DNA of 64,000 nt from assembly GCA_947447265.1 (NCBI GenBank), contig CANFKC010000013.1:1-64000 (forward strand). Direction: 5' to 3'. Position numbers and translations under genes: made by a program. This document shows, one piece after another, positions 36,276 to 58,115 of this stretch. Every line of letters begins with the position of its first letter. The stretch's first letter is position 1. The DNA is from Chitinophagaceae bacterium (GTDB lineage Bacteria; Bacteroidota; Bacteroidia; Chitinophagales; Chitinophagaceae). The notes under the pieces are model-generated. The model worked only from the letters and a program-made list of their open reading frames with translations, had not been told where the DNA came from and ran no database searches.

Positions 36276-36334
36276 ATGTAAATAGGCATTTGGTAATATT
36301 GATAAAGGATTTTTGCACCTCAAAAGTCCCTTTT

Positions 36335-39300: not shown

Positions 39301-42300
39301 GTATTCAAGAATTGCTATCAGCTCCAAGCCTAACAATGTGAAACTTGCAGATATCGATGGAGATGGCAAGCTGGATATTGTTTGTGCAATAAATAATAAT
39401 ACCAATGTAGCGATTGTAAGAAATACCACAACTTCAACTGGTAGCCCAACTTTTGCATCAGTAAGCACGGCATCACTTGCTACTATTCAGGCAGTAGTAG
39501 CTATCGCAGATTTTGACGGAGATGGTAAGGCCGATATAGCTGTGACACTTCCGGGAACAAGTGCGGTAGGTATCCTACTGAATACTTCAAGTATAGGCGC
39601 TATCAGCTTTGCTGCTGTAGTTAACGTTGCTGCTGGTTCTGCACCAAACGGTGTAGCTACTGCTGATTTTAATGGTGATAATCGTACAGATATTGTGGCT
39701 GTTAATGCAGGCGGCAATAGCGTATCTGTTTTCCAGAATAACTCAACTTCGGGTTCGTTATCTTTTGGTAGTGCAGTTACTCTTTCAACAGGTAGCGCAC
39801 CAATTGATGTGCAGACCGCTGATATAGATGCAGATGGGAAAATGGATATTTTATTCACCAATAGCTCCGACGCTACTTTCTCAGTTATCCGTAACCAATA
39901 CACATCAGGTGCTATTGTTTCGGGTTCATTCGCTTCAAGGGTTAACTTTACAACCGGCACAGGCACTACTGGCCTTGCGGTTGCAGACCTTAACGGCGAT
40001 AGCAAACTGGATGTTGTAGTTTCTAATGCAGCAAATACAATTTCTGTTTTCCGTAATACTACTACCGGCTCAACACCTGCATTTACGACAAAAGTTGACT
40101 ATGCAACCGGCAGCGGCCCTACAACAGTAACACTTGGCGACCTTGATGGCGACAAGTTTACTGACATAGTAGTAGGTAATAAGAACGACCGTACCGTATC
40201 AGTTTTTGAAAACTATCCATTACCATACGTACCCGCTATAACAGGCGCAACATCATTATGTGCAGATTCCACAGCTACACTTGCAGATAGCTTGACTGGT
40301 GGAATATGGGCCAGCAGCGCAACCGGAATTGCAACAATCAATCCGACAACGGGTGTAGTTACAGGAATTTCTGCGGGAGTTTCGACCATAAGCTACTCAA
40401 TAGTGGCTGGTGGCGATACCAATTATGTAACCAGATCAATTACAGTAAATGCGCATCCGACAGTGGGTAGCATTACGGGTACTACAACAGTTTGCCCGTC
40501 GGTATCATCAACACTATCTTCTTCATTTTCTGGTGGCACTGGCACCTGGAGCAGCAGCGCAACATCAATTGCAACTATTAATCCGACTACAGGAGTAATG
40601 ACAGGTGTTGCTGGGGGAACTGCGACCATTACCTTTACAGTAACAGGCGCATGCGGAACAGTATTTACTACAACAACAGCTACAGTAACCACGTCTCCAT
40701 CAGCGGGTACCATAACAGGAACTACAACAGTTTGCACCGGCGCAACTACTACATTAAGTGACGGTATTGCAGGCGGCGTTTGGAGCAGCAGTGCTGCCGG
40801 AGTTGCTACAGTTGACGCATCGGGCGTTGTTACTGGTGTAACAGCAGGTTCAGCAACAATTTCTTATACCGTTACCAACAGTTGCGGAACAGCAACAGCA
40901 TCAGCCTCGGTTACAGTAAATACAGTCCCTTCGGCACCTGCGTCCATAACAGGTACAACTACTTTGTGTGCCACAACTACCAGCACGCTGAGCGATGCTA
41001 CAGGCGGTGGTACGTGGAGCAGCAGCGCAACATCAATAGCAACAGTCGATGCATCAGGTGTTGTAACAGGTGTAGCCGGCGGAACAGTAACCATATCATA
41101 TACCGTTACCAACAGTTGCGGCAGCACTTCTGCTACAACAACTGTAACTATCAATCCTTTACCAACTACACCGGCAGCAATTACCGGAACAACTACAGTT
41201 TGTACTGCAGCGACTACAACATTAGCTGATACAACCTCAGGCGCTACCTGGAGCAGCAGTGCAACAGGAATAGCAACAGTTGACGCATCTGGTGTAGTTA
41301 CCGGCGTGGCTGTTGGTACCGTAACCATATCGTATACCGTTACCAACAGTTGCGGCAGTTCATCTGCTACTGCAACTGTTACCGTTATCACAACACCATC
41401 AACACCGGCTGCAATTACCGGTACAACAACTGTTTGTACTTCAGCTACAACAACACTAGCTGACGCAACAAGTGGCGGTACCTGGAGCAGCAGTGCTACA
41501 GGCGTGGCAACAATTGATGCATCGGGTGTGGTAACCGGCCTTACAGTTGGTTCTGCAACTATAACTTACACTGTAAGTAACACATGCGGTTCAGCATTTA
41601 ATACTACTTCGGTTACCGTAATAACTATACCGGCAACACCTGCAGCCATTACGGGTACAACAACAGTATGTACAGCAGCAAGCACAACATTAGCATCAAC
41701 TACCAGTGGTGGTACCTGGAGCAGCAGCGCAAGCGGTGTCGCTACGGTTAACCCATCAACTGGTGCGGTAACCGGCGTAACTGTGGGTTCTGCAACTATA
41801 ACTTATACAGTTTCTAATAGCTGTGGTAGTGCTTTTGTAACTACATCAGTAACCGTGAATACCGTTCCTGCTACACCTGCTTCAATAACAGGTACTACAA
41901 CAGTTGCAATAGCTGCAACTACTACTTTAAGCGATGCGACTAGCGGTGGCGCATGGACAAGCAGTGCAACATCAATAGCTACCATATCATCAGGTGGGGT
42001 TGTTACTGGTGTGGCTGCAGGTTCTGCAACTATCACTTATACAGTAACTAATGCATGCGGATCAGCCTTTACTACAGCAAGTGTAACAATTACATCTGGC
42101 AGTTATACTGCCGGCAACCTGGTAGTACTAAAAACTATCGGTACAACAAGTGCTTCAACTGCTATCAGGCTGATGGAACTTTCAACAGCAGGTTCAGTTG
42201 TCGATTCAGTTTCTTTACCAACAAGCGGTGGTTCACAGATCACTATGAGTGGTAGTGCTACTTCAGAAGGCTTCCTTTCATTATCAGGTGAAAAAGACAG

Positions 42301-45300
42301 GATAATAGTAACAGGCTATGATGCAACAACAGGTGTGGCATCTATTGCCGGTACAGCATCAGCCTCTACTAACCGTGTTATCGGTTCTGTAACGTATACA
42401 AAATCGTTCGCGAGAAATTTTGCGCAGAGCGTTTATTCAGCAAATAATATAAGGGGTGGTACCGCTTACAACGGCTTCTATTTTGCTACTGGTTCTAATA
42501 CCGGTGCAATCAGGATGAATGATGCTGCTACGTTAAGCAGCACATCGACCAACCAGCGCTCGATGGCTATATTTAATGGTTGCCTTTACTATGCAGTTGC
42601 TGCAGGTACCGGCGTTCGTGGTATTTACCAGATAGGTACAGGCATTTCATCTGCTACCGGGCAGACGGCTACACAAATCGCCAACCAGGCAAGTTCCGGT
42701 GGTGCGGAATCGTTCTCTATAAGCCCGGATGGCAATATCCTTTACATTGCTGACGGAACTAATGGTATTGTGAAATTTACAAGAACGGGTGGTGCGGGCA
42801 GCTTTACAGCAGCAAGCTATACCGTTTACGCAACTACTTGCGGCGGTATTACTGTTGACTACACAACTACCAACCCGACAATATATACTACACTGGCATC
42901 AGGTACATCACTGGTAAAATTCCAGGATGCGGGAAGTACTGTTTCGTCGGTGTCTACAATATATACAGCACCAGCTGGCACATTGCTTCGTGGTGTGGTT
43001 TTTGCTCCAACTGCTGATGCGACCGTTACCGCAACTGCAGCTTCGGTATGCAGCGGTGGCAGCACTACGGTTACGTTTAGGGGTAACCCACACGCTACCG
43101 TTACCTATAATATTAACGGTGGCACAAGCCAGACGATAGTAATAGACTCGGCAACAGGTACTGCATCAGTTTCTACAGGAACAATAAGCTCGCCTGCCAC
43201 TTACAACCTCGTAAACATTATAGTACCATCAGGAACCAAAACATTGTCTGGTTCTACTACCATCAATATATTAACAGCGCCGGTAGTGCCTGCAATAACC
43301 GGTACAACAACCGTTTGCGCTGGCGCAACAACTGCATTAGCTGATACAGCAACAGGTGGTACCTGGAGCAGCGCCACTACAGCGGTGGCTACAGTAAATG
43401 CATCAGGCGTTGTTTCTGGCGTTTCTGGCGGCACATCAGTAATCTCTTATTCAAAAACAAACAGCTGTGGTACTACAGTAGTTACAACTACTGTTACCGT
43501 AACACCATTGCCTGTTGTTGCACCGGTAACGGGCGCAACAACATTGTGCTCGGGCGCAACAACTACCCTGGCCGACACGACCAGCGGCGGTACCTGGAGC
43601 AGCAGCGCTACAGGTATTGCTACCGTTGATGCCTCAGGCGTAGTTTATGGCGTATCTGCAGGTTCTGTTACTATTACGTATACCGTTACCAACAGTTGCG
43701 GCTCAGCATATTCAACGCTTACCCTTACTGTTAACTCAGGTCCGGTTGTAGGCGCAGTTACAGGCACTACTGCTATATGCACGGGTTCAACATCAACGCT
43801 GGCTGATACAACAGCAGGTGGTACATGGACCAGCAGCGCAACTGCAATTGCAACAGTTAGTGCTTCAGGCGTAGTAACCGGCGTTACGGCAGGTTCTGCT
43901 ACTATATCTTATACAGTTACCAATTCTTGCGGTTCTACAACTCAAACAGCCTCGGTTACAGTAACAGCCACCCCGACAGTAGGTGCAATAACAGGCCCTT
44001 CAACAGTGTGCGTTACGGGCACGATATCATTAAGCGATACTACTGCAGGTGGAACCTGGTCTAGCAGCGCAACATCAATAGCTACTGTAAATGCTACAGG
44101 TAACGTTTATGGCGTGGCTGTAGGTAGCACTACTATTTCGTATGGTGTCGTTACATCTTGCGGAACTATTTATGCAACGAGCACTGTCAGCGTCATTACA
44201 GCGCCAACCATCGGAGCCATTACTGGTGCCACGCATGTTTGTACTTCCGCAACAACAACACTCAGCGATACCACACTCTTCGGTACATGGACGAGCAGCG
44301 CACCATCGGTAGCGAGCATAAACTCATCGACCGGTGTAGTTACCGGTGTAAGCGCAGGAACTGCAACTATCACTTATTCGGTAGGCAGTGCGTGTGGCAC
44401 TTCAATAGTTACTTATCCGGATACTGTATTTGCTTCACCTTCGGTATCAGCTATTACTGGTGTTACTCCAATTATTGTTGGCCAGATCATCACTGCTGCT
44501 GATGCTACATCGGGTGGTACCTGGAGCGTTGCATCGGGTACAATTGCCAATATCAGTTCTGGTGGTGTCATCACCGGCCTTGCTGGCGGTACAACTACAG
44601 TATCTTACACAATTACCAATGCGTGCGGTTCAGCGGTAGCTACAGCATCATTAACTGTGAGTGCTGCAATGGGTGCAGGTAACATAGCTGTTTTACAGGC
44701 TAACGATACAACAGCAAATGGTTCTACCATTTCAATAGTAGAATACGGCACAACTGCTGGTTCTCCATTAAATACATTTACATTGCCTTCAACAGGTGCA
44801 AGCCCAAGGCTGGTAATGAGTGGTACTGCAAGCTCAGAAGGTAGTATGTCGCTCGATTCTGAACGTACGCACATTATATTACCGGGTTATGATACCACAG
44901 CCGGAACAACAGCTGTAGCAAGTAATGGCAGCGTGTTCAGGGCAATATTCTCCATGTTACCTACCGGTGCAGCGAGCAATGTTGTTAAATTGTCTCAGAC
45001 ACTTGTTTACAATACTAATAATTTCCGTGGTGCTACAGCAGCAGGTACAAAGTACTTTGGTGCGGGTACTGCAAGCACAGCGGCGCGTGGTGGCGTACAA
45101 TACATGGTAGGCACAACCTCGTCCACACAGGTTACTGCTACCACTACTAACGTAAGAACAGCACAGGTATTTAATGGTCAGCTTTACTACTCAACAGGTA
45201 GCGGTACAGTAGGTGTTTATGCAGTAGGAACCGGCGTACCAACCACCAGCGGCAACACATCGACCTTAATTAATAGCACCGGTTCACTTACAAGCCCTTA

Positions 45301-48300
45301 TGGTTTTTCTGTAAGCCCAGATGCAAATACGCTATACGTAGCTGATGATGCGCAAGGCATCTACAGGTTTACCAGGAGCGGTGGTACAGGTACTTTCGCT
45401 TCTGCAACACAGATCAATGCACTGAAATGCCGTGGTATTGCAGTTGACTACACTACTACACCGTATACCATTTATGCTACTACAGCAACTGGAACTAAAT
45501 TGTGTACTTCCTGTAACCCATACAGCGATTCATTAATAAAGATCGTTGATGGTGGTGCCGGTTCATCATATACACTTTTAGCGGCTGCGCCTGTTGGTAA
45601 AAACTTCAGGGGCGTAAGCTTTACACCTACACCAAAGGCTAGCATCACAGTAACTTCTGGCTTTGTGTGCTCAGGTTCAAGCGATACCGTTATTATATAC
45701 GGTAACCCAGGTGCAACAGTTAACTATTCTGTTAACGGCACTCCAACTTCAACTACTATAGATGGTAGTGGCAGGAAGCTGCTTGCATCAGTATACACCA
45801 ATGCAACATCGGGTGTTGTTTCTAATACTTATGTGCTAACCAGCATCGTTACTTCATTAGGTACATTCACTGCATCAGGCAGTGCTAATATAAACGTTAA
45901 CCCGGCGTTGGTAGCTGCAATTACCGGTACTTCTACTATTTGTAATGGCGATAGCATTACTGTGGCCGTAACCGGTGGCACCCCTGGTGCTGTTGTTACG
46001 CTTAGCCCAGGTGCTGCAACATTTACATTAAATGGTTCAGGTAACGGCAGCGTGCGCATAGCACCATCAGCTACAACCACATACACAGCTACTGTATCGC
46101 TAAGCGGATGTACGGCTTCTGCTACAGGTAGCGTTATTATCACGGTAAATCCGTTACCAACAGCAAGCATCAGCGGAACAACTTCAATATTCCTTGGTGC
46201 AAGTACGAGTATAGTATTTACAGGTACCCCAGGAGCAGTTGTTTATTATACATCTACCGGTGGCTCTACCACAGATAGTGTTACACTTGATGGTTCAGGC
46301 AACTATTCACTGACCGTAACACCAACAGGTACTACTACATATTCACTGATCAGCGTACGGTCTACATTGGGCTGCACAACGGCTGCAACCGGTAGTGCAA
46401 TAGTAACGGTAACTGCATTGCCATACGCAAATATCATCGGCACTGCAACAATATGCGCCGGTGCATCTACGAATATTATCATAAGCGGAACACCGGGTGC
46501 ATCGGTAGTTTATACTTACGGTTCATTTACTGATAGCGTGGTACTTTCCGCTTCAGGTTTCGATACCATCTCGGTTACTCCACTTACTACTACTACCTAT
46601 ACGTTAACACACATCCGTACTTCGTCTTACTCCGGTACTTTATCGGGCAGCATTACCGTTACTGTAGTTCCAACAGTTACCGCAGGTACGCTTTCGGGTG
46701 CTACAACAATTTGTGCAGCAGATACCAGTGTTATCTATTCAAGTACTACAGGTGGTGGCGCATGGTCAACAAGTGCTTCTTCTGTAGCATCAGTTAATAC
46801 CGCTACTGGACGCATTTACGCTGTTAGTGCAGGTACAGCAACTATTACTTACATTGTATCTAACAGTTGTTTTGCTGATACCGCGAGGAGAACAGTAACA
46901 ATTAATCCGTTACCAACTGCAACTATAAGCGGTACTACATCTATAATGCTGGGCGCCAGCACACCGGTTATATTTGCCGGTACAGCTAATGCTACGGTAA
47001 CTTATACTATTAATGGTGGTTCGCCTTTAACCGTTACTCTTAATGCTTCGGGTGCCGATACACTGGTTGTTTCACCAACTGTTACTTCAACATATGCATT
47101 AGTAAGTGTTACTTCAACAGCAGGTTGTACAAGTGCTGTTTCAGGTAATGCAGTAGTAACTGTAGTAACGCCATTCAGCAAGGGTAATCTGGTTGTATTA
47201 AGGCCGGAAGCCAGCACTAATAACGCAACTAACGTTTCTGTTGTACAATATGATACGTCGGGTACATTGGTAAGCGTTACAGCTATTCCATCAACAGGCG
47301 CTTCAAAATTAACAATAAGCGGTACTGCAACTTCTGAAGGTCTTATCTCACTTTCCGCAGAAAGGGACAGGCTGGTACTGGTTGGTTATGATGTTGCATT
47401 GGGTACAACCGGTAGCGTAACTGGTATAGCTGCTAACAGGGTTATTGGTACATTAAATCCACTAACTACATTCACCCGTAACTTCTCACAGAACGTTTAT
47501 TCAGGAAACAATATCCGCAGTGGTCTTGCATACGATACGAATTTAGTAGCAGGTGGTGCCAATACCGGACTTATGTTAATGAATAATGGTACTACCAATA
47601 TTTCAAGTACGGTAACGAATACCCGTTATCTCCAGGTTTATAATGGTCAGCTTTATTTCTCAACAGGTAGTGCTACGTTAGGTATTTACCGTGTGGGCAG
47701 TGTTCTGCCAACAACTGCTGGTACAACTGCAGTAAACGTAGCACGTACAGGAACGGGTACAAGCCCTTATGGCTTCTCTATAAGCCCTGACGGATTGAGC
47801 CTGTTTGTTGCTGATGATGGCGCGACTCGTGGTATCCGTAAGTTTACAAGGGCCAGCACAAGTGATACTTTCTTGTTAGCTTATACAGTATTGTCTAACC
47901 CATGCGTAGGTGTGGCTGTTGACTACTCTGTTTCTCCTTATATAGTATATGCTACTACCAGGGGATCGGGATCAGGCGTGACTGCTGTTGACTCATTGAT
48001 AAAAATGCGTGATGGTGCAGGTGCAACCCTAACCAGGTTAGCTACTTCACCAACAGGTAATCCGTTCCGTGGTCTTGCGTTTGCTCCTGCTGCTTATGGT
48101 AGCGTTGCATTAGCTGGTGCTGCATCAATTTGTAACGGTGCAAGCAGTTCTATCAACTTCATCGGCAATCCTTATGGTAAAATTAAGTATCACGTTAACG
48201 CAGGTACTATACAAACCGCTACATTAGATTCTACAGGTTCAGTAACTATTACCACCGGCGCATTGAGCACTACTACGGGAACAGTTACCACATATACTTA

Positions 48301-51300
48301 TGCACTGGATTCTATATTGAACCCATCGGGCTATACTGCTCTTACAGGTACAGCAGTGGTAACGGTTAATCCAACACCGGTTATTACTGCTATCACATCA
48401 TCGTCTGATACACTTTGTGCTGGTGGTACATTATCGTTCACAGCAACAACAGTTACCGGTTCTGGTGGTGTTATCCATTATGCATGGAGTGGACCTTCGG
48501 CCTTCGCTTCAACATTGGCCAATCCGTCAATCACTACTACATTGGCTTCAGCTGGTGTTTATTCATTGGTGGTTACTGACACCACTACAGGTTGTGTTAG
48601 TGGCACTAATACATCAAACGCCATTGTAGTTAACGGTCTGCCAACTGCGGGTACTATTACAGCTACACCAGCATCAACATGCGTAGGTTCATTAATTACA
48701 CTTACAGAAACTGGTACTATCTCAGGCACCGGTACCCTCGTATCTTATAACTGGTCAGGTCCTGGTGGCTACAGCCATACCGGAACATCAGCTACTGATA
48801 CCTTCACTGCTCCATCAACAGCATATTCAGGTGTGTATAGCCTTACGGTAACATACAGCGGCGCTGGTTGCACCAGTGGTGCAGTAGTTAGTTCTGCAAT
48901 AACCGTAAATGCTGCGCCTACAGCTTATTCCGTAACAGGTGGTGGCGCTTATTGCGGTACTACCGGTGTAGCAATTGGTTTAAGCAGTTCAGATACCGGC
49001 GTAAGTTACCAGTTATACTTTGGTGCAAGCACAGCGGGTTCGCCCGTTGCTGGTACTGGTAGCGCAATTAGTTTTGGTGCTTACACAGGTATTGGCACCT
49101 ACACAGTTATGGCAACAGGTCCGGGAGGTTGCAGCGCAGTTGCAATGACCGGTAGCGCAACTATTGCAGACTATACAGTCGGCATTACTGTAGGCGCTAA
49201 CCCTAGTGTTTGCCAGCCAACTTCAAGTGCTACATTATCTTATTCTTCGCCAACAGGCAGCCCTTCCACTTATAGCATAGTATGGAATACAAGGGCGCTC
49301 GCCGATGGTTTCAGCAATGTGAGCGGTGCAACACTGGGTGCAACCATTCCATTGTCAATACCAACAGGTGCTGATACTGTTTACGGTGCTACTATTACTG
49401 TATCAAACGGTACTTGTACCAGCGTTGGTTACAACCCTACTTTAACTGTATATGCGCATCCGACAGCTACTATTACATCAGCAGTTGCACCGTGCTCTGG
49501 CTATGCTACCAACGTAGTATTTACAGGTACGCCACGCGCTACTATTACCTACAGGGTTGATGGTGGTTCATCATCGACAGCTGCACTGTCATCTGCAGGT
49601 ACTTATTCATTAGGAACAGGTGCTATAACATCAGCGCATACCTATTATCTGCTCGACGCACATAACCCGGTTTGCTCTACAACGCTTACTGATTCTATTA
49701 TTGTTACCCCAATACCAATGCATTGGGTAGGTGGCACCAGCACAGACTGGAATACTGCCAGCAACTGGTCATGTGGTTTTGTACCAGGCGCGGGTGATGA
49801 TGTTACTATTGATACGGGTACTGCAAACAGGCCGTCAATTGCTACATCCGGAACCGGCACTGTAAGAAGCCTGACGCTTATTGCAACCGCAAGGGTTACA
49901 TTAAATTCAGGCGCTATCTTAAACGTTAAGGGTAACATGGTTAATAACGGTACAATTACAGGTGCAGGTAAAGTGAAGCTGAACAATACATCGGCGCAAA
50001 CTATAACAGGTATCGGTACCGTAAACAATCTGAACCTTAACAACAGTGCAGGTGCAACAATTGGTTCTGCGTCAAGGGTAACGGTGAAAGGCATACTTTC
50101 AGTTACGACGGGTGCATTGGCAACCGGTGATAGCCTGGTATTATATGCTGATTCGGCAGCTACAGCAAGGGTTGATTCATTACCAGCTGGTGCCAGCATT
50201 ACTGGTCAGGCTAAAGTTATGGTATATGTTCCGGGCGGTCGTCGTGCGTATCGTTTCTGGTCACATCCGTTCAGCAACTACATTGGTCTGAGCCAGGTTC
50301 AAAACTATATTGATGTAACAGGTGCAGGTGGTTCCGGCAATGGCTTCACTACTACGGCATCAAACGCTCCTTCAGCATTCAGGTACAACCCGCTTGTAGG
50401 TAATTCAGCTTTAGGTTCCGATCCTGGATGGAGGCCATTTACAAGTGCGTTTACAACAGCGGACAGTAACAGGTTGCACCGTTATCAAGGTATGAGGTTA
50501 TTCTTCAGGGGTGCGAAAGACAGCGGCTTAGGTTATACACCTTATACGCCACAGGCGGTAAGCGTGGCACAATGGGGTACTTTAAACCAGGGCACACAAA
50601 CAGTTACTTTAAGTAAGGGTTCTTCTTCCGGCCAGGATTACAACATGATCGGTAACCCTTATGCTTCTCCGGTTGATATCGGTACTGTAATACACAATGC
50701 ATTGGTTGCAGGTACTGTGGTAGGTCCGTCTTACTTCGTATGGAACCCGTCACTGGGCGCTGCAGGTCAGTTCCAGGCGCAGTTCATCAATACAACAACT
50801 GCAGTGCCTTACTATATCCAGGCTTGTAATTCTTTCCAGGTTCATGCCGCATACAATGGTAGCACGCTGACCTTTAACGAGAATAATAAGGGTGCAACAC
50901 CAACTGCTAACTTGTTTAAAGCTGCTCCGGAATATATCTCTCTTAAGGTTTATGATGCCAACTACCATCCTTATGATATGTTGTATGTTCAGTTCAATGA
51001 GAATGCAACTGACGATGTTGATAGCAGCATTGATGCAACCAAGCCTTTCGGTGGTGCTGACCTGAATTTCTATAGTCTTACTAACGATGAGCACAAGATG
51101 ATAATTGATGCCCGTAAGTATGATACGGATAAGGTTATTCCATTGGGTATAACTGCGCAACACGCACAGGACTATATCATTAAGGCAGAAACAGTTGCTT
51201 TACCAACAGGTGGCGAACTGTATCTGCATGACAAACTGCTGAAGCAATATGTGAAATTAGACCAGGGTGCTGAGTACAGGTTTGCAATAAACAGCAACCT

Positions 51301-51616
51301 GACTACACAGGGCAACAACAGGTTCGAATTGACTATGAAGCCAGCTCCTGCAGCACCATCGGTGCCAGTGCTTAAGGTAGCCATGACACCAAACCCTGCA
51401 ACTGATGAAGTTCAGATCAGCTTCACACAGAGTGCAAGCGAAAATGTTGCTGTTCGTTTACTTGATCTTTCTGGTGTAAGTGTTTACAATAAAGATCTGG
51501 GTATACAGCAGAATGGTTCTGTAACAGTGCCACTAAGCAAATTTGCTGCAGGTATTTATATGGTTGAATTGACTTCAGGTAATCAGAAAGTTGTTCAGCG
51601 TTTAATTAAAGAATAG
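36335..51616 (+). CDS. Giant T9SS-secreted multidomain surface protein (5,093 residues)
   Basis: Begins with a signal peptide (MKKFLQSTGRRSFFMVGLLL...), ATG 36335 preferred over TTG 36290. Order: beta-rich N-terminal region (to about 820), IPT/TIG domain (about 826-910), seven FG-GAP/VCBS units (about 950-1290; e.g. DIDGDGKADLVV, DLDGDKFTDIVV), eight Ig-like Big_2-type repeats (1302-1926), propeller-like module A (1927-2227), six more Ig-like repeats (2321-2779), module B (2782-3100), further Ig-like domains, module C (3617-3922), more Ig-like domains, a WVGGTSTDWNTASNWSCG beta-helix-like region (from about 4462), and a type A T9SS sorting domain (about 5011-5093, MTPNPATDEVQ to QRLIKE). Thr/Ser-rich throughout. 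Likely a huge adhesin or matrix protein. The frame is unbroken over 15 kb. Confidence 0.93.
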   Translation: MKKFLQSTGRRSFFMVGLLLLLPFFANRSYGQTNPTAQSIPYTQAFTGVTTTYPAGWQGWTSAFAVSNNEGQQVLPMTADKTMISGNNSSTTNSVYSFSNNIGLLNSGSAMNALCLAVVTTGSSNIRVVYDAATQGQTSAGRIDKFALQYRVGTSGNFTDVNGTTYQNNASATTSGSTASNVVTISVILPAACNNQSVVQLRWIYQDMSGSGGRPSFSIDNVSVSAVTLTNFYSKSSGNLDATGTWGTNTNGTGTAPSDFTTVNQVFHIANSNSGGISGSNWTVSGLGSKVIVDSSDLTISSSKPIIALIDVAANRTLTLSNTTLPTFGELSSAGTVKFSSLSYTASSVLPNSTVFGGVIFDNTSVLPATNSAPFLFTGNFTLQNSASFYGGDTTASGTGYNLIVLGSANQTITGNNLILACRNFSVNDNNSTANPTKAGTLSLASNTNLYVCNSITTQISTAGNAFSDGGNTIKVYNNISMGGASAGYNLTGTMSANIITSGTLNIRGYTAGAASSTIVAAPVFKNININSTGTAVVAFCPTTGANTYTIGGNFNVAGVGTGAINFGGNTIQIGGNFTYVPTSNVITFTGSTVQFNGAAAQNYSSNVATTGNAFVNLTMNNTNGLTLFSPLTVSGVLTLTSGKIRTLSNTMLLTSTTAGNVSGGSSTSYVNGALSKVVPSAGATRMLFEVGDTTYSPVTLGLNASATAGTIKVRSAYGSHPQIVGAGINPTTMTNRYWSINLTAVTAGAYPMLDTFSYSTGDINGGSNTGFIVRRYDNTAATWSTVSTVANYTTLPSPLMPNGTSAAGQATTTATIDYVAGKTYPVPTISSVSPNTGNPGSGGSGTAVTITGTNFNTTAGNNVVYFGATKATVSSVTGSTILNVTVPIGATYASVSVTNIAAGLSAYYNPPFKPSFNNAGFIADTINIKPKVDFNSTTANSSPYGGAIGDIDGDGKADLVVNNVDSSSVSIFLNTSSGGTINTGSFTLYSRIAISSKPNNVKLADIDGDGKLDIVCAINNNTNVAIVRNTTTSTGSPTFASVSTASLATIQAVVAIADFDGDGKADIAVTLPGTSAVGILLNTSSIGAISFAAVVNVAAGSAPNGVATADFNGDNRTDIVAVNAGGNSVSVFQNNSTSGSLSFGSAVTLSTGSAPIDVQTADIDADGKMDILFTNSSDATFSVIRNQYTSGAIVSGSFASRVNFTTGTGTTGLAVADLNGDSKLDVVVSNAANTISVFRNTTTGSTPAFTTKVDYATGSGPTTVTLGDLDGDKFTDIVVGNKNDRTVSVFENYPLPYVPAITGATSLCADSTATLADSLTGGIWASSATGIATINPTTGVVTGISAGVSTISYSIVAGGDTNYVTRSITVNAHPTVGSITGTTTVCPSVSSTLSSSFSGGTGTWSSSATSIATINPTTGVMTGVAGGTATITFTVTGACGTVFTTTTATVTTSPSAGTITGTTTVCTGATTTLSDGIAGGVWSSSAAGVATVDASGVVTGVTAGSATISYTVTNSCGTATASASVTVNTVPSAPASITGTTTLCATTTSTLSDATGGGTWSSSATSIATVDASGVVTGVAGGTVTISYTVTNSCGSTSATTTVTINPLPTTPAAITGTTTVCTAATTTLADTTSGATWSSSATGIATVDASGVVTGVAVGTVTISYTVTNSCGSSSATATVTVITTPSTPAAITGTTTVCTSATTTLADATSGGTWSSSATGVATIDASGVVTGLTVGSATITYTVSNTCGSAFNTTSVTVITIPATPAAITGTTTVCTAASTTLASTTSGGTWSSSASGVATVNPSTGAVTGVTVGSATITYTVSNSCGSAFVTTSVTVNTVPATPASITGTTTVAIAATTTLSDATSGGAWTSSATSIATISSGGVVTGVAAGSATITYTVTNACGSAFTTASVTITSGSYTAGNLVVLKTIGTTSASTAIRLMELSTAGSVVDSVSLPTSGGSQITMSGSATSEGFLSLSGEKDRIIVTGYDATTGVASIAGTASASTNRVIGSVTYTKSFARNFAQSVYSANNIRGGTAYNGFYFATGSNTGAIRMNDAATLSSTSTNQRSMAIFNGCLYYAVAAGTGVRGIYQIGTGISSATGQTATQIANQASSGGAESFSISPDGNILYIADGTNGIVKFTRTGGAGSFTAASYTVYATTCGGITVDYTTTNPTIYTTLASGTSLVKFQDAGSTVSSVSTIYTAPAGTLLRGVVFAPTADATVTATAASVCSGGSTTVTFRGNPHATVTYNINGGTSQTIVIDSATGTASVSTGTISSPATYNLVNIIVPSGTKTLSGSTTINILTAPVVPAITGTTTVCAGATTALADTATGGTWSSATTAVATVNASGVVSGVSGGTSVISYSKTNSCGTTVVTTTVTVTPLPVVAPVTGATTLCSGATTTLADTTSGGTWSSSATGIATVDASGVVYGVSAGSVTITYTVTNSCGSAYSTLTLTVNSGPVVGAVTGTTAICTGSTSTLADTTAGGTWTSSATAIATVSASGVVTGVTAGSATISYTVTNSCGSTTQTASVTVTATPTVGAITGPSTVCVTGTISLSDTTAGGTWSSSATSIATVNATGNVYGVAVGSTTISYGVVTSCGTIYATSTVSVITAPTIGAITGATHVCTSATTTLSDTTLFGTWTSSAPSVASINSSTGVVTGVSAGTATITYSVGSACGTSIVTYPDTVFASPSVSAITGVTPIIVGQIITAADATSGGTWSVASGTIANISSGGVITGLAGGTTTVSYTITNACGSAVATASLTVSAAMGAGNIAVLQANDTTANGSTISIVEYGTTAGSPLNTFTLPSTGASPRLVMSGTASSEGSMSLDSERTHIILPGYDTTAGTTAVASNGSVFRAIFSMLPTGAASNVVKLSQTLVYNTNNFRGATAAGTKYFGAGTASTAARGGVQYMVGTTSSTQVTATTTNVRTAQVFNGQLYYSTGSGTVGVYAVGTGVPTTSGNTSTLINSTGSLTSPYGFSVSPDANTLYVADDAQGIYRFTRSGGTGTFASATQINALKCRGIAVDYTTTPYTIYATTATGTKLCTSCNPYSDSLIKIVDGGAGSSYTLLAAAPVGKNFRGVSFTPTPKASITVTSGFVCSGSSDTVIIYGNPGATVNYSVNGTPTSTTIDGSGRKLLASVYTNATSGVVSNTYVLTSIVTSLGTFTASGSANINVNPALVAAITGTSTICNGDSITVAVTGGTPGAVVTLSPGAATFTLNGSGNGSVRIAPSATTTYTATVSLSGCTASATGSVIITVNPLPTASISGTTSIFLGASTSIVFTGTPGAVVYYTSTGGSTTDSVTLDGSGNYSLTVTPTGTTTYSLISVRSTLGCTTAATGSAIVTVTALPYANIIGTATICAGASTNIIISGTPGASVVYTYGSFTDSVVLSASGFDTISVTPLTTTTYTLTHIRTSSYSGTLSGSITVTVVPTVTAGTLSGATTICAADTSVIYSSTTGGGAWSTSASSVASVNTATGRIYAVSAGTATITYIVSNSCFADTARRTVTINPLPTATISGTTSIMLGASTPVIFAGTANATVTYTINGGSPLTVTLNASGADTLVVSPTVTSTYALVSVTSTAGCTSAVSGNAVVTVVTPFSKGNLVVLRPEASTNNATNVSVVQYDTSGTLVSVTAIPSTGASKLTISGTATSEGLISLSAERDRLVLVGYDVALGTTGSVTGIAANRVIGTLNPLTTFTRNFSQNVYSGNNIRSGLAYDTNLVAGGANTGLMLMNNGTTNISSTVTNTRYLQVYNGQLYFSTGSATLGIYRVGSVLPTTAGTTAVNVARTGTGTSPYGFSISPDGLSLFVADDGATRGIRKFTRASTSDTFLLAYTVLSNPCVGVAVDYSVSPYIVYATTRGSGSGVTAVDSLIKMRDGAGATLTRLATSPTGNPFRGLAFAPAAYGSVALAGAASICNGASSSINFIGNPYGKIKYHVNAGTIQTATLDSTGSVTITTGALSTTTGTVTTYTYALDSILNPSGYTALTGTAVVTVNPTPVITAITSSSDTLCAGGTLSFTATTVTGSGGVIHYAWSGPSAFASTLANPSITTTLASAGVYSLVVTDTTTGCVSGTNTSNAIVVNGLPTAGTITATPASTCVGSLITLTETGTISGTGTLVSYNWSGPGGYSHTGTSATDTFTAPSTAYSGVYSLTVTYSGAGCTSGAVVSSAITVNAAPTAYSVTGGGAYCGTTGVAIGLSSSDTGVSYQLYFGASTAGSPVAGTGSAISFGAYTGIGTYTVMATGPGGCSAVAMTGSATIADYTVGITVGANPSVCQPTSSATLSYSSPTGSPSTYSIVWNTRALADGFSNVSGATLGATIPLSIPTGADTVYGATITVSNGTCTSVGYNPTLTVYAHPTATITSAVAPCSGYATNVVFTGTPRATITYRVDGGSSSTAALSSAGTYSLGTGAITSAHTYYLLDAHNPVCSTTLTDSIIVTPIPMHWVGGTSTDWNTASNWSCGFVPGAGDDVTIDTGTANRPSIATSGTGTVRSLTLIATARVTLNSGAILNVKGNMVNNGTITGAGKVKLNNTSAQTITGIGTVNNLNLNNSAGATIGSASRVTVKGILSVTTGALATGDSLVLYADSAATARVDSLPAGASITGQAKVMVYVPGGRRAYRFWSHPFSNYIGLSQVQNYIDVTGAGGSGNGFTTTASNAPSAFRYNPLVGNSALGSDPGWRPFTSAFTTADSNRLHRYQGMRLFFRGAKDSGLGYTPYTPQAVSVAQWGTLNQGTQTVTLSKGSSSGQDYNMIGNPYASPVDIGTVIHNALVAGTVVGPSYFVWNPSLGAAGQFQAQFINTTTAVPYYIQACNSFQVHAAYNGSTLTFNENNKGATPTANLFKAAPEYISLKVYDANYHPYDMLYVQFNENATDDVDSSIDATKPFGGADLNFYSLTNDEHKMIIDARKYDTDKVIPLGITAQHAQDYIIKAETVALPTGGELYLHDKLLKQYVKLDQGAEYRFAINSNLTTQGNNRFELTMKPAPAAPSVPVLKVAMTPNPATDEVQISFTQSASENVAVRLLDLSGVSVYNKDLGIQQNGSVTVPLSKFAAGIYMVELTSGNQKVVQRLIKE
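40238..42111 (+). repeat. Block of eight tandem Ig-like coding repeats, about 234-bp period
   Basis: Unit starts, each reading ITG, lie at 40238, 40472, 40712, 40946, 41180, 41414, 41648 and 41885. Each unit has TVC near the start, GTWSSSATGIATVDASGVVTG-like centre and SCG near the end. Codon choice differs between units, so they are not recent copies. The last unit lacks the first Cys (TTTVAIAATTT). Confidence 0.9.
42113..43015 (+). repeat. Propeller-like module A within the giant gene
   Basis: First of three paralogous modules; the others are at 44678-45633 and 47183-48100. Shared landmarks: GN-(L/I)-(V/A)-VL at the start, SGSATSEGFLSLSGEKDRII, NNIRGGTAY, SISPDGNILYIADG, VDYTT and a final FRG/LRG-V-x-FAP. 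Confidence 0.85.
43295..44670 (+). repeat. Block of six tandem Ig-like coding repeats, about 231-bp period
   Basis: Unit starts at 43295, 43526, 43757, 43988, 44219 and 44453. The same Cys pair pattern as the first block holds for five units; the sixth (ITGVTPIIVGQIITAAD) again lacks the first Cys, just before propeller-like module B. Confidence 0.9.
44678..45633 (+). repeat. Propeller-like module B within the giant gene
   Basis: Paralogue of module A: GNIAVLQANDTTANGS, SGTASSEGSMSLDSERTHII, NNFRGATAAG, SVSPDANTLYVADD, AVDYTTTPYTIYATT and FRGVSFTPT. Confidence 0.85.
47183..48100 (+). repeat. Propeller-like module C within the giant gene
   Basis: Paralogue of modules A and B: GNLVVLRPEASTNNAT, SGTATSEGLISLSAERDRLV, NNIRSGLAYD, SISPDGLSLFVADDG, AVDYSVSPYIVYATT and FRGLAFAPA. 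Confidence 0.85.
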
Positions 51617-54141: not shown

Positions 54142-56247
54142 ATGAGATCAATTATTAAACAATCAAAATGGGCTATTCCAGCCATAGCGTTCATGAGTGT
54201 ACAATTGCTTACAACAGGCTGCAAAAGCGGTGGCGACACTTCAAAAGCCAAAACCGATAGTACTGCAACTGCGGCAGACGGTTACGACAGCACTTTTAAG
54301 GTAGAAGCACAGGCGTTCGGCGACCTGCAAACGCTACGTTACCAGATACCCGGCTTTAACAGCCTGAGCCTGCAACAAAAACAATTATCATACTACCTGT
54401 ATGAAGCAGCGCTTTGCGGTCGGGATATGATATATGACATGAAGAGCAAGCATGGTATACTATTGCGTAAGACAATAGAAGCTATGTACGGCAGCTACAA
54501 GGGCGATAAGGCTAATCCTGACTGGAAGAAGTTTGAAGACTATTGCGGTCGCTTCTGGTTCAGCAACGGCAACCATCACCATTACAGCAATGAAAAATTC
54601 ATCCCGGAATGTTCGTTTGAATATTTTACAAGTGTAGTAAAGGCTTGCGATACAGCACAATTACCAAAACAAGCCGGTGAAAGTGTTGATGCGTTTATAG
54701 CCCGTATTAAACCAATAGTATTCGACCCTAAGTTTGAACCAAAGGTAGTAGACCAGAGGCCGAATATCGATAACATTGCCAACTCATCTAACAACTTCTA
54801 TGAAGGGGTAACTCAAAAAGAAGTGGAAGCCTTCTATGCTAATTTCGATACCAAGGGTAATGCACCTTCATGGGGCTTAAACAGCAAAGTGGTAAAAGAG
54901 AATGGCAAAATAGTGGAGAAGACCTGGAAGAGCGGCGGCATGTATGGTGCGGCAATTGATAAAATTGTAGGTTGGTTACAAAAAGCATCAGCAGTTGCTG
55001 AAAATGCAGAACAAAAGCAAGCGCTCGATCTGCTGGTTAAATACTACCAGACCGGTGACCTTAAAACATGGGATGATTACAGCATTGCATGGGTTAAAGA
55101 CCTGAAATCGCGCATTGATGTGGTGAATGGCTTTATTGAAGTGTATCTGGATGCTATTGGCAAAAAGGGTAGCTTCGAAAGTACCGTATCTATGAAAGAT
55201 ATGGAAGAAACCAAGCGTATTGAAGCGATAGCTAAAGAGGCGCAGTGGTTTGAAGACCACTCTCCTATTATGAAGGAGCATAAAAAAGATACGGTTAAAG
55301 GTATTACCGCTAAGGCTATCACGGTAATAGTAGAGTGCGGTGATGCTGCACCGAGCACGCCTATCGGTATTAACCTGCCGAATGCTGACTGGGTACGCAA
55401 GGATCATGGTTCAAAATCAGTTTCGTTAACCAACATCATTCATTCTTACAATGTTGTAGGCGCTAAAAGCGGCGTGGTTGATGAGTTTGCTATCAGCGAT
55501 GAGGTAAAAGCACGTATGAAGAAATACGGTGGCCTTGCATCTGACCTGCATACCGATATGCATGAGTGTATTGGCCATGCAAGCGGTAAGATTAATGCCG
55601 GTGTTGAAACAACTGACAAAACATTAAAGAACTACGCCAGCTGCCTGGAAGAAGCCCGTGCTGACCTGGTTGGCCTGTACTTTATAATGGATCAGAAGCT
55701 GATAGACATCAAGGTAATGCCTGATATGGACGTTGCTAAAGCTGCTTACGACAACTACATGATGAACGGCCTGATGACCCAGCTTACCCGCCTGAAACCA
55801 GGGGAACAACTGGAAGAAGCGCATATGCGTAACCGTGCGTTGATTGCGCATTGGGCATTTGAAAAAGGTGCTAAGGATAAAGTAACTGAATTGGTGAAAA
55901 AGGATGGCAAAACCTATGTACAGGTTAACGATTACGCCAAGCTGCGTGTATTGTTCGGCGACTTACTTAAAGAAATACAGCGCATTAAATCAGAAGGCGA
56001 TTTCAAGGCTGGTAAAAATCTGGTTGAAAACTATGGCGTAAAAGTGGATAAAGAACTGCATAAAGAAATACTGGAGCGCTTTGCGAAATTGGGCATTAAG
56101 CCATACCGTGGCTTCATACAGCCTAAATTGGTGCCTGTAATGAATGGTACAGAAATTAAAGATGTAAAGGTGGAATACCCTGATAACTTCTTTAACCAGA
56201 TGATGGAATACGGCAAAAACTACGGCTATCTGCCGGTAGTTAACTAA
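54142..56247 (+). CDS. Dipeptidyl peptidase III-like lipoprotein (peptidase M49)
   Basis: A 701-residue zinc peptidase with a lipoprotein signal (LLTTGC, Cys27). The M49 zinc motif HExxGH is at 474-479 (HECIGH) and the second zinc site is near 503 (EEARADLVGLYF), the expected spacing. DPP III removes dipeptides from peptide N-termini. Eukaryotic forms are cytosolic, while this one is envelope-anchored, as several Bacteroidota homologues are. It is of typical length with active-site residues intact. The gene stands alone with a short hairpin terminator just downstream. Confidence 0.93.
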   Translation: MRSIIKQSKWAIPAIAFMSVQLLTTGCKSGGDTSKAKTDSTATAADGYDSTFKVEAQAFGDLQTLRYQIPGFNSLSLQQKQLSYYLYEAALCGRDMIYDMKSKHGILLRKTIEAMYGSYKGDKANPDWKKFEDYCGRFWFSNGNHHHYSNEKFIPECSFEYFTSVVKACDTAQLPKQAGESVDAFIARIKPIVFDPKFEPKVVDQRPNIDNIANSSNNFYEGVTQKEVEAFYANFDTKGNAPSWGLNSKVVKENGKIVEKTWKSGGMYGAAIDKIVGWLQKASAVAENAEQKQALDLLVKYYQTGDLKTWDDYSIAWVKDLKSRIDVVNGFIEVYLDAIGKKGSFESTVSMKDMEETKRIEAIAKEAQWFEDHSPIMKEHKKDTVKGITAKAITVIVECGDAAPSTPIGINLPNADWVRKDHGSKSVSLTNIIHSYNVVGAKSGVVDEFAISDEVKARMKKYGGLASDLHTDMHECIGHASGKINAGVETTDKTLKNYASCLEEARADLVGLYFIMDQKLIDIKVMPDMDVAKAAYDNYMMNGLMTQLTRLKPGEQLEEAHMRNRALIAHWAFEKGAKDKVTELVKKDGKTYVQVNDYAKLRVLFGDLLKEIQRIKSEGDFKAGKNLVENYGVKVDKELHKEILERFAKLGIKPYRGFIQPKLVPVMNGTEIKDVKVEYPDNFFNQMMEYGKNYGYLPVVN

Positions 56248-56269
56248 ACTACAGCATAATCACTACAAG

Positions 56270-56300
56270 AAAGGCGTAGCAGCAATGTTGCGCCTTTTTT
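56270..56300 (+). terminator. Terminator of the M49 peptidase gene
   Basis: AAAGGCG (56270-56276) pairs with CGCCTTT (56291-56297) around a nested TAGCAGCAATGTTG, followed by T. A near-copy lies at 58029-58058, beyond the ATPase gene. Confidence 0.8.
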
Positions 56301-56315
56301 GCATAGTGTCAAACC

Positions 56316-56419
56316 TATACTCAGCCAAAACTCACTTTATTTTATGGGTTTTGGCTGAGTATATTTTTTATTATACTCAGCCAAAACTGCTATTTTTTCA
56401 TTAGTTTTGGCTGAGTATA
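56316..56419 (+). repeat. Two inverted-repeat units upstream of the AAA ATPase
   Basis: Unit 1 (56316-56363) and unit 2 (56372-56419) each have TATACTCAGCCAAAAC, a 16-base spacer, then GTTTTGGCTGAGTATA, perfect complements. The two spacers differ. Unit 2's spacer creates TAGTTTTG (56402-56409), a perfect -7 box about 20 bases before the ATPase ATG, while unit 1 has GGGTTTTG there. The right arm overlaps the box, so a bound regulator would block transcription. There is a third unit at 57908. Confidence 0.9.
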
Positions 56420-56428
56420 ACTGATATT

Positions 56429-57865
56429 ATGGAGCAACTTGTAGGCAGGGAGCACGAAAAAATGTTGCTCGACAGAGCATTTAAATCGCCGGAAGCGGAG
56501 CTAGTAGCGATATTTGGCAGGCGAAGAGTAGGAAAAACATTTCTCGTTCGTTCGGTATACGAAGGCAAGATGCTGTTTGAGTTTTCGGGTGTTCATCATG
56601 CGTCACTGGCAGAACAGTTACTGAGTTTTAGCTTAGCCTTAAAGAACGTTGCCGGAGATAAAACTTCAGATGCGAAGCTTACAAGTTGGATAGAGGCATT
56701 TCATTTGCTGGCGAGATATTTGACACCTAAACTAAAGAACAAAAGAGGTGTTGTGTTTTTAGATGAGCTTCCCTGGCTTCAGACGCCCAAGTCGGGCTTT
56801 CTCGGCGCTTTTGAGCATTTCTGGAATAGTTGGGCTTCCCGGCAGCCAAACCTGGTTGTAGTTATTTGTGGGTCGGCTGCATCGTGGATGATACAAAAAA
56901 TAGTGAATAACAGAGGAGGGCTGCATAACAGGATAACTCAGAAGATAAGGTTGATGCCGTTTGATCTTAATGAAACGGAAGAGTACCTGAAAAGCCTGAA
57001 GGTAAATATAGATAGATACCAGGTATTGCAATTATACATGGCTATGGGTGGGATTCCTCAATACCTGAAGTCGGTAAGAACAGGGGAGAGCGCAACACAG
57101 GCAATTGACAGGATATGCTTTGCAAAAGATGGTGTTCTTAAAGATGAGTTCAATAATATTTTCACTTCTTTATTTGATAATGCAGAACAACATATCGCTA
57201 TTATTAAGGCGTTGTCCGTTACGCGTAAAGGCCTTAACCGTACAGAAATAATCCTTAGCTGCGGGCTATCATCCGGGGGAACGGCAACAAAATTATTGGA
57301 AGAGTTAGTGGAGTCTGGATTTATCACTCCGTACATACCGTTTGATAGAAGTGTGAAAGAGAGTATTTACAAACTCTCGGACGAGTATTCTCTTTTTTAT
57401 TTGAAGTTTATGCAAAAAAGCCGGTTTACGGGAGATGGGACCTGGCTTAAGCTGTCAACTGGCCCTTCATGGAGTAGCTGGAGCGGCATCGCTTTTGAAG
57501 GGATTTGCCAAAAGCATGTACAGCAAATCAAGAAGGCTCTCGGAATAGCCGGGGTGCTTACAACAGAGTCGGTATGGAGATATGCATCGAAAGGTGAGGA
57601 GCAGGGAACACAAATTGATTTATTGATAGACCGTACCGACCATTGCATAAATATCTGTGAAATGAAGTATACACTTTCGTCGTTTTCTATTGACAAGAGG
57701 TATGCTGCGGAACTGAAGAATAAGCTGGCTGTTTTCAGAGAAAAGGCGAAAACAAACAAAGCGCTGTTTCTTACAATGATTACTACTTATGGTATCAGGC
57801 AGAACATTTATTATACCGGGTTGGTACAAAACGAGATTACGATGGACGCTTTATTTGACAAGTAA
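56429..57865 (+). CDS. AAA ATPase with C-terminal DUF234 nuclease-like domain
   Basis: A 478-residue protein of the archaeal-type ATPase family. Walker A is GRRRVGKT (30-37) and Walker B VVFLDELPW (108-116), then GSAASWMIQKIVNNRGGL, and a helical region with LDAL-like winged segments (about 255-310). The C-terminal DUF234 domain, a PD-(D/E)xK-like fold, reads GTQIDLLIDR then CINICEMKYT at about 393-415. Both ATPase and nuclease-type residues appear present. Biological role unknown; such genes are abundant and patchy across bacteria and archaea. It starts 10 bases after the second inverted-repeat unit, with no Shine-Dalgarno. Confidence 0.9.
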   Translation: MEQLVGREHEKMLLDRAFKSPEAELVAIFGRRRVGKTFLVRSVYEGKMLFEFSGVHHASLAEQLLSFSLALKNVAGDKTSDAKLTSWIEAFHLLARYLTPKLKNKRGVVFLDELPWLQTPKSGFLGAFEHFWNSWASRQPNLVVVICGSAASWMIQKIVNNRGGLHNRITQKIRLMPFDLNETEEYLKSLKVNIDRYQVLQLYMAMGGIPQYLKSVRTGESATQAIDRICFAKDGVLKDEFNNIFTSLFDNAEQHIAIIKALSVTRKGLNRTEIILSCGLSSGGTATKLLEELVESGFITPYIPFDRSVKESIYKLSDEYSLFYLKFMQKSRFTGDGTWLKLSTGPSWSSWSGIAFEGICQKHVQQIKKALGIAGVLTTESVWRYASKGEEQGTQIDLLIDRTDHCINICEMKYTLSSFSIDKRYAAELKNKLAVFREKAKTNKALFLTMITTYGIRQNIYYTGLVQNEITMDALFDK

Positions 57866-57907
57866 TTTGGTAGTTTTTAAGATAAAATAGCATCTCACTT
57901 CAAAACC

Positions 57908-57955
57908 TATACTCAGCCAAAACTCACTTTATTTTATGGGTTTTGGCTGATTATA
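57908..57955 (+). repeat. Third inverted-repeat unit, downstream of the ATPase
   Basis: Arms TATACTCAGCCAAAAC and GTTTTGGCTGATTATA (one base changed), with a 16-base spacer identical to that of upstream unit 1. It leads straight into ACTGATATT and an ATG, the same nine bases that precede the real ATPase start. Confidence 0.92.
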
Positions 57956-57964
57956 ACTGATATT

Positions 57965-58033
57965 ATGGAGCAACTTGCAAGCAATGAGCATTGAGGTAAA
58001 CTTCTTGATAGCGCATTAACATCCCGGGAAAGC
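57965..58033 (+). pseudogene. Decayed 5' end of a second AAA ATPase gene
   Basis: The frame reads MEQLASNEH, then a TGA stop (57992-57994), then GKLLDSALTSRES. It aligns without gaps to residues 1-23 of the ATPase (MEQLVGREH, E, KMLLDRAFKSPEA). The match then stops at the terminator copy at 58029. This is a remnant of a related, not identical, gene copy that lost nearly all of its body. Confidence 0.8.
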
Positions 58034-58058
58034 GTAGCAGCAATGTTGCGCCTTTTTT
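58029..58058 (+). terminator. Near-copy of the M49 peptidase terminator
   Basis: AAAGCGTAGCAGCAATGTTG then CGCCTTTTTTT, differing from 56270-56300 by one missing G in the left arm. Directly joined to the ATPase remnant. Confidence 0.75.
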
Positions 58059-58115
58059 TGTAAAAATTGGGTGGATGCTCCGACAGCGCGTGGAGTTTAA
58101 TTGGCTTGCGGCACG

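Follow-up and report, generated by a model that had tools for sequence, protein, structure and literature searches.

Three short palindromic units surround an ATPase gene near one end of the window, the 64,000-nucleotide stretch of Chitinophagaceae DNA analysed here, and the locus raises the question of what these units do. An initial annotation had proposed that they are either an autoregulatory operator of the gene or the ends of a mobile ATPase cassette. The reading we favour, with a probability of about 0.7 and on the strength of sequence comparisons, is that the upstream units are autoregulatory promoter-operators of PDC-S27, a single-gene candidate defence system to which the ATPase belongs.

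Repeats, remnant and terminators at the locus

Re-examination of the sequence found the three units, a remnant beginning at a second start codon and a duplicated terminator where the initial annotation had located them. The upstream M49 peptidase gene has a terminator-like hairpin (T, 56,271–56,300, + strand), and behind it lie two units of 48 bp each, the distal R1 (56,316–56,363) and the proximal R2 (56,372–56,419), the proposed promoter-operator, to which homologous units exist in relatives. The arms of R1 are TATACTCAGCCAAAAC and GTTTTGGCTGAGTATA. The PDC-S27 gene, encoding 478 amino acids, occupies 56,429–57,865 on the + strand, and the third 48-bp unit, R3 (57,908–57,955), lies 42 bp 3′ of its stop codon. 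The description of the arms as perfect is accurate for R1 and R2, in which 16-bp arms enclose 16-nt spacers, whereas R3 has one arm mismatch. Half-sites with up to three mismatches occur six times in the window against an expectation of 0.83, a number reached in none of 100 shuffled sequences, and in the organism's own genome the exact half-site is confined to this locus.

R3 and R1 agree at 47 of 48 positions, the spacer being the same throughout, and R3 has the right flank of R2, ACTGATATTATGGAGCAACTTG. To judge from these identities, R3 looks like a recombinant of R1 and R2, behind which a second ATPase copy began. As the initial annotation had pointed out, the nine bases preceding the gene's ATG recur 3′ of R3 and are again followed by an ATG; identity extends for 22 nt past the unit. 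The decayed N-terminal remnant that begins here (57,965–58,028, + strand) comprises some 22 codons with a stop at codon 10, and its in-frame identity to the gene falls sharply after about codon 4. It joins T′ (58,029–58,058, + strand), which matches T at 29 of 30 positions, at a point of short similarity. T has just two copies in the 5.06-Mb genome, which rules it out as a dispersed genomic repeat.

The initial annotation also reasoned that the arms seem constrained, the remnant having diverged further than the repeats. This reasoning fails here, since the non-conserved spacer and 5′ leader of R3 are as identical as its arms, which points to a recent copy or to gene conversion. It is the comparison across homologues, described below, that demonstrates constraint on the arms.

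Family and domain structure of the protein

The sequence of the window protein places it firmly in PDC-S27: it matches the family profile (PADLOC PDLC04984) with an E-value of 2.2e-204, residues 1–476 aligning with positions 1–473 of 474. PDC-S27 has been described as a candidate single-gene phage-defence family in which an ATPase is fused to a PD-(D/E)XK domain; it has thousands of copies in bacteria and archaea and is among the commoner candidate defence genes (PMC12988326). The window gene agrees with this description over its full length and has the same fusion. Of the original designation, AAA/DUF234 ATPase, the ATPase part is borne out by matches to ATPase_2 (PF01637; 44.7 bits against a Pfam gathering threshold of 33.2) and AAA_14; DUF234 (PF03008) must be dropped, there being no Pfam match to it in the protein at E-values up to 10.

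An AlphaFold model (pLDDT 94.9) predicts an AAA+/STAND ATPase domain at residues 1–235 or thereabouts, a winged helix at about 252–316 and a PD-(D/E)XK nuclease domain at about 346–476, the core of which has the predicted topology alpha-beta-beta-beta-alpha-beta. The Walker A and B motifs and residues E357, D404, E411 and K413 are invariant in 77 homologues, and D397 is present in at least 90% of these sequences. Structure comparison reveals that residues 1–327 share the fold of the archaeal Walker-type ATPases 2qen (Z 20.3) and 2fna (Z 19.8), with rmsd values of 3.3–3.4 Å; the next matches are the ATPases of plant resistosomes and CED-4. PDC-S27 differs from such STAND/NLR-like ATPases in that its C-terminal part is a nuclease and a long sensor-repeat domain is absent. 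Because the comparisons with PDB structures mostly cover residues 1–336, the nuclease assignment rests on the invariant residues and the predicted topology. There is no evident defence island around the window copy. Our hypothesis is that the gene encodes a self-repressed defence nuclease, with phage defence as its candidate role.

Palindromic units in relatives and the promoter box

An exact search for the unit in 84,980 species genomes returned only three contigs. In two of them the unit lies directly upstream of a homologue (63% and 61% identical), one of these contigs having five units. The third contig represents the second homologue's locus in another genome, from which the gene has gone. 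The unit is, then, found beside ATPase genes in other genomes. Homologues from the genus, with identities of 57–76%, have without exception two to five units ahead of the ATG, and in one of them a matched change is present in both arms (CCATAAC/GTTATGG). A paralogue in the same genome (60% identical) is preceded by two units with arms unlike those of the window gene.

The comparison was widened to 90 homologous loci from the phylum (Bacteroidota) and class, which include some close orthologues and so do not give fully independent counts. When the 150 bp preceding the start codon were scanned for inverted repeats without reference to any motif, 67 of the 90 had a significant palindrome (shuffle p ≤0.01), the mean arm score, out of 14, being 12.8 upstream and 10.8 downstream. 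Among control genes of the PDC-S01 family, 3 of 24 have a significant palindrome (mean arm score 11.2), and a general trait of ATPase-nuclease defence genes is thus unsupported for PDC-S01. A few PDC-S01 genes (L218, L221, L237 and L238) do have palindromes around the promoter, so that occasional self-operators may exist in related families of ATPase-nucleases.

The gap between the cores GCCAAA and TTTGGC is 19 bp in 39 pairs and 20 bp in 29, that is, in 68 of 72 pairs. So fixed a spacing suits a protein that contacts a pair of half-sites a defined distance apart along the DNA. In other lineages the layout is the same and the arms differ, for instance GCGGAA or GGCTATAAG; about one-quarter of the homologues are without a significant unit, as are several plasmid-borne and archaeal relatives. 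The perfection of the inverted repeats, together with the position of some 3′ units just after the stop codon, might bring to mind transcribed stem-loops serving as terminators, insulators or antisense targets. However, a core-to-core loop held at 19–20 nt fits the helical spacing of DNA and not the folding of RNA, the letters of the arms are conserved across loci beyond what pairing alone would call for, the proximal unit lies across the promoter and mostly upstream of the predicted transcription start, and the 3′ units that were inspected have no T-run. We regard a function at the RNA level as very improbable.

Specificity was assessed in 395 genomes of the class with a pattern consisting of one TATA end and two cores. 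Among the matches listed, 41 of 50 pattern units adjoin a PDC-S27 gene, 39 of them within 600 bp of a known one and two more on closer inspection; this rules out a widespread repeat family. Five of the remaining nine have no second TATA end, fitting the control rate of four, and the other four represent three orphan loci.

Several individual loci deserve mention. A perfect orphan unit (L196/L251, genome G916) is separated by about 420 bp from the point where a different ATPase gene begins; this gene reads like an AAA_14/DUF4143 protein, and there is no PDC-S27 relative nearby. The distant relatives L033 and L034 (24–25% identical) have a tighter palindrome directly before the start, with half-sites resembling TATACTC/GAGTATA, a hint that within the arm the TATACT end predates the GCCAAA core. 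Units of the GGCGGAATATA type are present upstream of the plasmid relatives L132 (Butyrivibrio fibrisolvens; Bacillota) and L131 (Emticicia oligotrophica), and a repeated palindromic sequence of the TAGCCTATTTT type lies just upstream of a haloarchaeal relative, L138, on a plasmid of Natronorubrum aibiense. The plasmid copies of Segatella, Phocaeicola, Malaciobacter and Desulfosarcina have no obvious unit.

For the primary sigma factor of Bacteroidota, the −7 box is TAnnTTTG (PMC9723704, PMC7366714). A match, TAGTTTTG (56,402–56,409, + strand), spans the end of the spacer and the right arm of R2; R1 and R3 are without the box. Of 46 proximal 5′ units, 42 contain the box in sense orientation, in most cases reaching from the spacer into the right arm, and 2 contain it in antisense; in 39 its position is the same as in R2. 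The box suggests a promoter within R2 and, if it is taken to be −12 to −5, a transcription start near 56,414, some 15 bp before the ATG. R3, having no −7 box, is unlikely to drive transcription of the remnant.

Units 3′ of the gene are found at 20 loci by the GCCAAA core, and at about 26 by arm matching. They lie some 0–130 bp after the stop codon, overlapping it in some loci, and 7 of the 20 contain the −7 box. At the 13 loci compared, a gene's own 5′ and 3′ arms match one another better than they match the arms of other loci (0 of 20,000 permutations). Moreover, the distance between operators tracks the distance between proteins (Mantel r 0.43; 0 of 5,000 permutations). Part of this covariation is shared ancestry, since r drops to 0.22 for pairs more than 30% apart. 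Likeness of the arms within a palindrome can also be maintained by mutation-correcting template switching.

Units on both sides of the gene, of which those at the 3′ end retain the arms and mostly not the promoter box, and a nuclease whose active-site residues are invariant would also be consistent with sites that the PD-(D/E)XK domain itself recognises or senses, as self-marks, decoys or an activation switch, with regulation secondary. Against this, the frequency of the −7 box in the proximal units and the narrow range in which these units are positioned, some 10 bp ahead of the start, speak for control of transcription, and units so rare elsewhere in the genome would make poor self-marks. 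We consider recognition by the nuclease an improbable primary function.

The operator proposal of the initial annotation is, by contrast with these readings, well supported by the location of the units, their fixed geometry, the embedded −7 box, the covariation with the protein and the near-exclusive association with one family. The protein probably binds the units itself, as indicated indirectly by the winged helix of the model, by the covariation and by that association; an unlinked regulator could do so too, although nothing else is conserved at the loci. We envisage that the winged helix, in a dimer or in an AAA+/STAND oligomer, would grip two half-sites some 25–26 bp apart, so that the bound protein would cover the −7 box and the transcription start and repress its own gene. 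Arrays of units would raise cooperativity. The unit behind the gene, present at about one-fifth to one-quarter of loci, might be an extra site for looping or bracketing, or have another function; simple autorepression does not need the 3′ units, most of which are without the promoter box. Infection, or loss of the repressor, would induce the gene, and the ATPase-gated nuclease would then cut DNA.

In toxin–antitoxin type operators and RptR-like repressors of defence islands (PMC12255303), a palindrome likewise overlaps the promoter and the repressor is likely to be encoded at the locus. Here, however, the presumed repressor is the effector itself, an ATPase-nuclease with no separate regulator, and loci of the window type are further set apart by their arrays, by half-sites spaced far from one another and by an additional site behind the gene. 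A search of open-access papers yielded no report of palindromic sites at these genes and no mention of a promoter-operator or 3′ unit of this kind. A conserved cognate DNA site at most Bacteroidota PDC-S27 promoters offers a handle on the family, as a binding ligand, as the basis of a reporter and as a means of finding relics, and makes it testable that an NLR-like ATPase-nuclease represses itself. The additional 3′ unit in many lineages is unexplained by ordinary autorepression and bears on the question of whether the gene is mobile.

Transfer, relics and mobility

The gene is patchy in its distribution: 48 of 395 genomes of the class have it, and host families are dispersed over its tree, with 38 changes against a minimum of 18. 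It follows that horizontal transfer is frequent. It is possible that the gene and its units form a mobile cassette, in which the units would be the termini, or else the target, of a compact element moved or homed between sites by the ATPase-nuclease. In keeping with this second proposal of the initial annotation, many relatives are bracketed: matching units flank the gene at about 20–26 loci. Gene and units also occur in different flanks, homology ending at or near the units; for close homologues (88–92% amino acid identity), the upstream DNA is common only out to the units (L023 and L031; L013 and L072). At the window locus, the cassette is surrounded by the 30-bp T/T′ duplication, which may have arisen as a target duplication or within a tandem one.

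Two known systems invite comparison. REP/RAYT elements (REPtrons) consist of a single gene bracketed by short palindromes, a likeness that PDC-S27 shares; unlike them, it is without an HUH Y1 tyrosine transposase, its units are not dispersed repeats and its copy number is low. The Tn7 protein TnsA is a PD-(D/E)XK nuclease, as is the C-terminal domain of PDC-S27, and the ATPase domain is similar in sequence to the transposition regulator VchTnsC (E 4e-6). In contrast to Tn7, PDC-S27 has the nuclease fused to the ATPase and has no defined ends, and in the annotation of the neighbourhoods no TnsB-type DDE transposase was noticed.

Other observations speak against movement of a cassette. Pfam, PADLOC and the model identify only the ATPase, winged helix and PD-(D/E)XK domains in the protein, with no transposase catalytic domain, and there is no DDE, HUH or tyrosine recombinase. 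Most genomes have one to three copies. At the empty sites corresponding to L016 (G547, G504 and G570), a comparison within one genus of 65 genomes, the flanking convergent genes abut, and neither a unit nor a target duplication is present. The additional DNA of L016 extends past the units by about 50 bp on the upstream side and 100 bp on the downstream side, so that the breakpoints in this well-sampled genus lie off the units. In L022 and L024, downstream homology continues about 50 bp past the unit. A viral origin was rejected, as neither relatives nor units were found in viral contigs.

The remnants and orphan arrays, furthermore, resemble deletions. G290 and G241 keep the units alone, while G496 and G406 keep a unit together with 23 or 36 N-terminal codons; by their sequence these leftovers look like deletion relics, that of G496 being the same kind of arm-to-arm deletion as R3. 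Since the relics in other genomes look like deletions, the block of R3, remnant and T′ in the window is most simply read as what remains of a second copy after local duplication and a deletion with short microhomology. Overall, we judge the mobile cassette unlikely. Slightly less likely again is its fullest form, in which PDC-S27 genes and their cognate palindromes would be minimal self-propagating cassettes, the ATPase-gated nuclease recognising both end units and moving or homing the gene between genomes without a classical recombinase, while the gene doubles as a host defence gene and the ends as promoter-operator.

At the window's own locus the downstream genes differ in every member of the genus, which makes an empty-site comparison there uninformative. 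In three species of the genus (L057, L058 and the window, 54,142–57,865), the PDC-S27 gene lies 0.2–2.7 kb downstream of the same M49 peptidase gene, in the same orientation and with different intervening genes. Further upstream in the window, a single open frame of 5108 amino acids (36,290–51,616, + strand) contains many repeated domains; its C-terminus reads like a secretion sorting signal, and the product is probably a giant surface protein.
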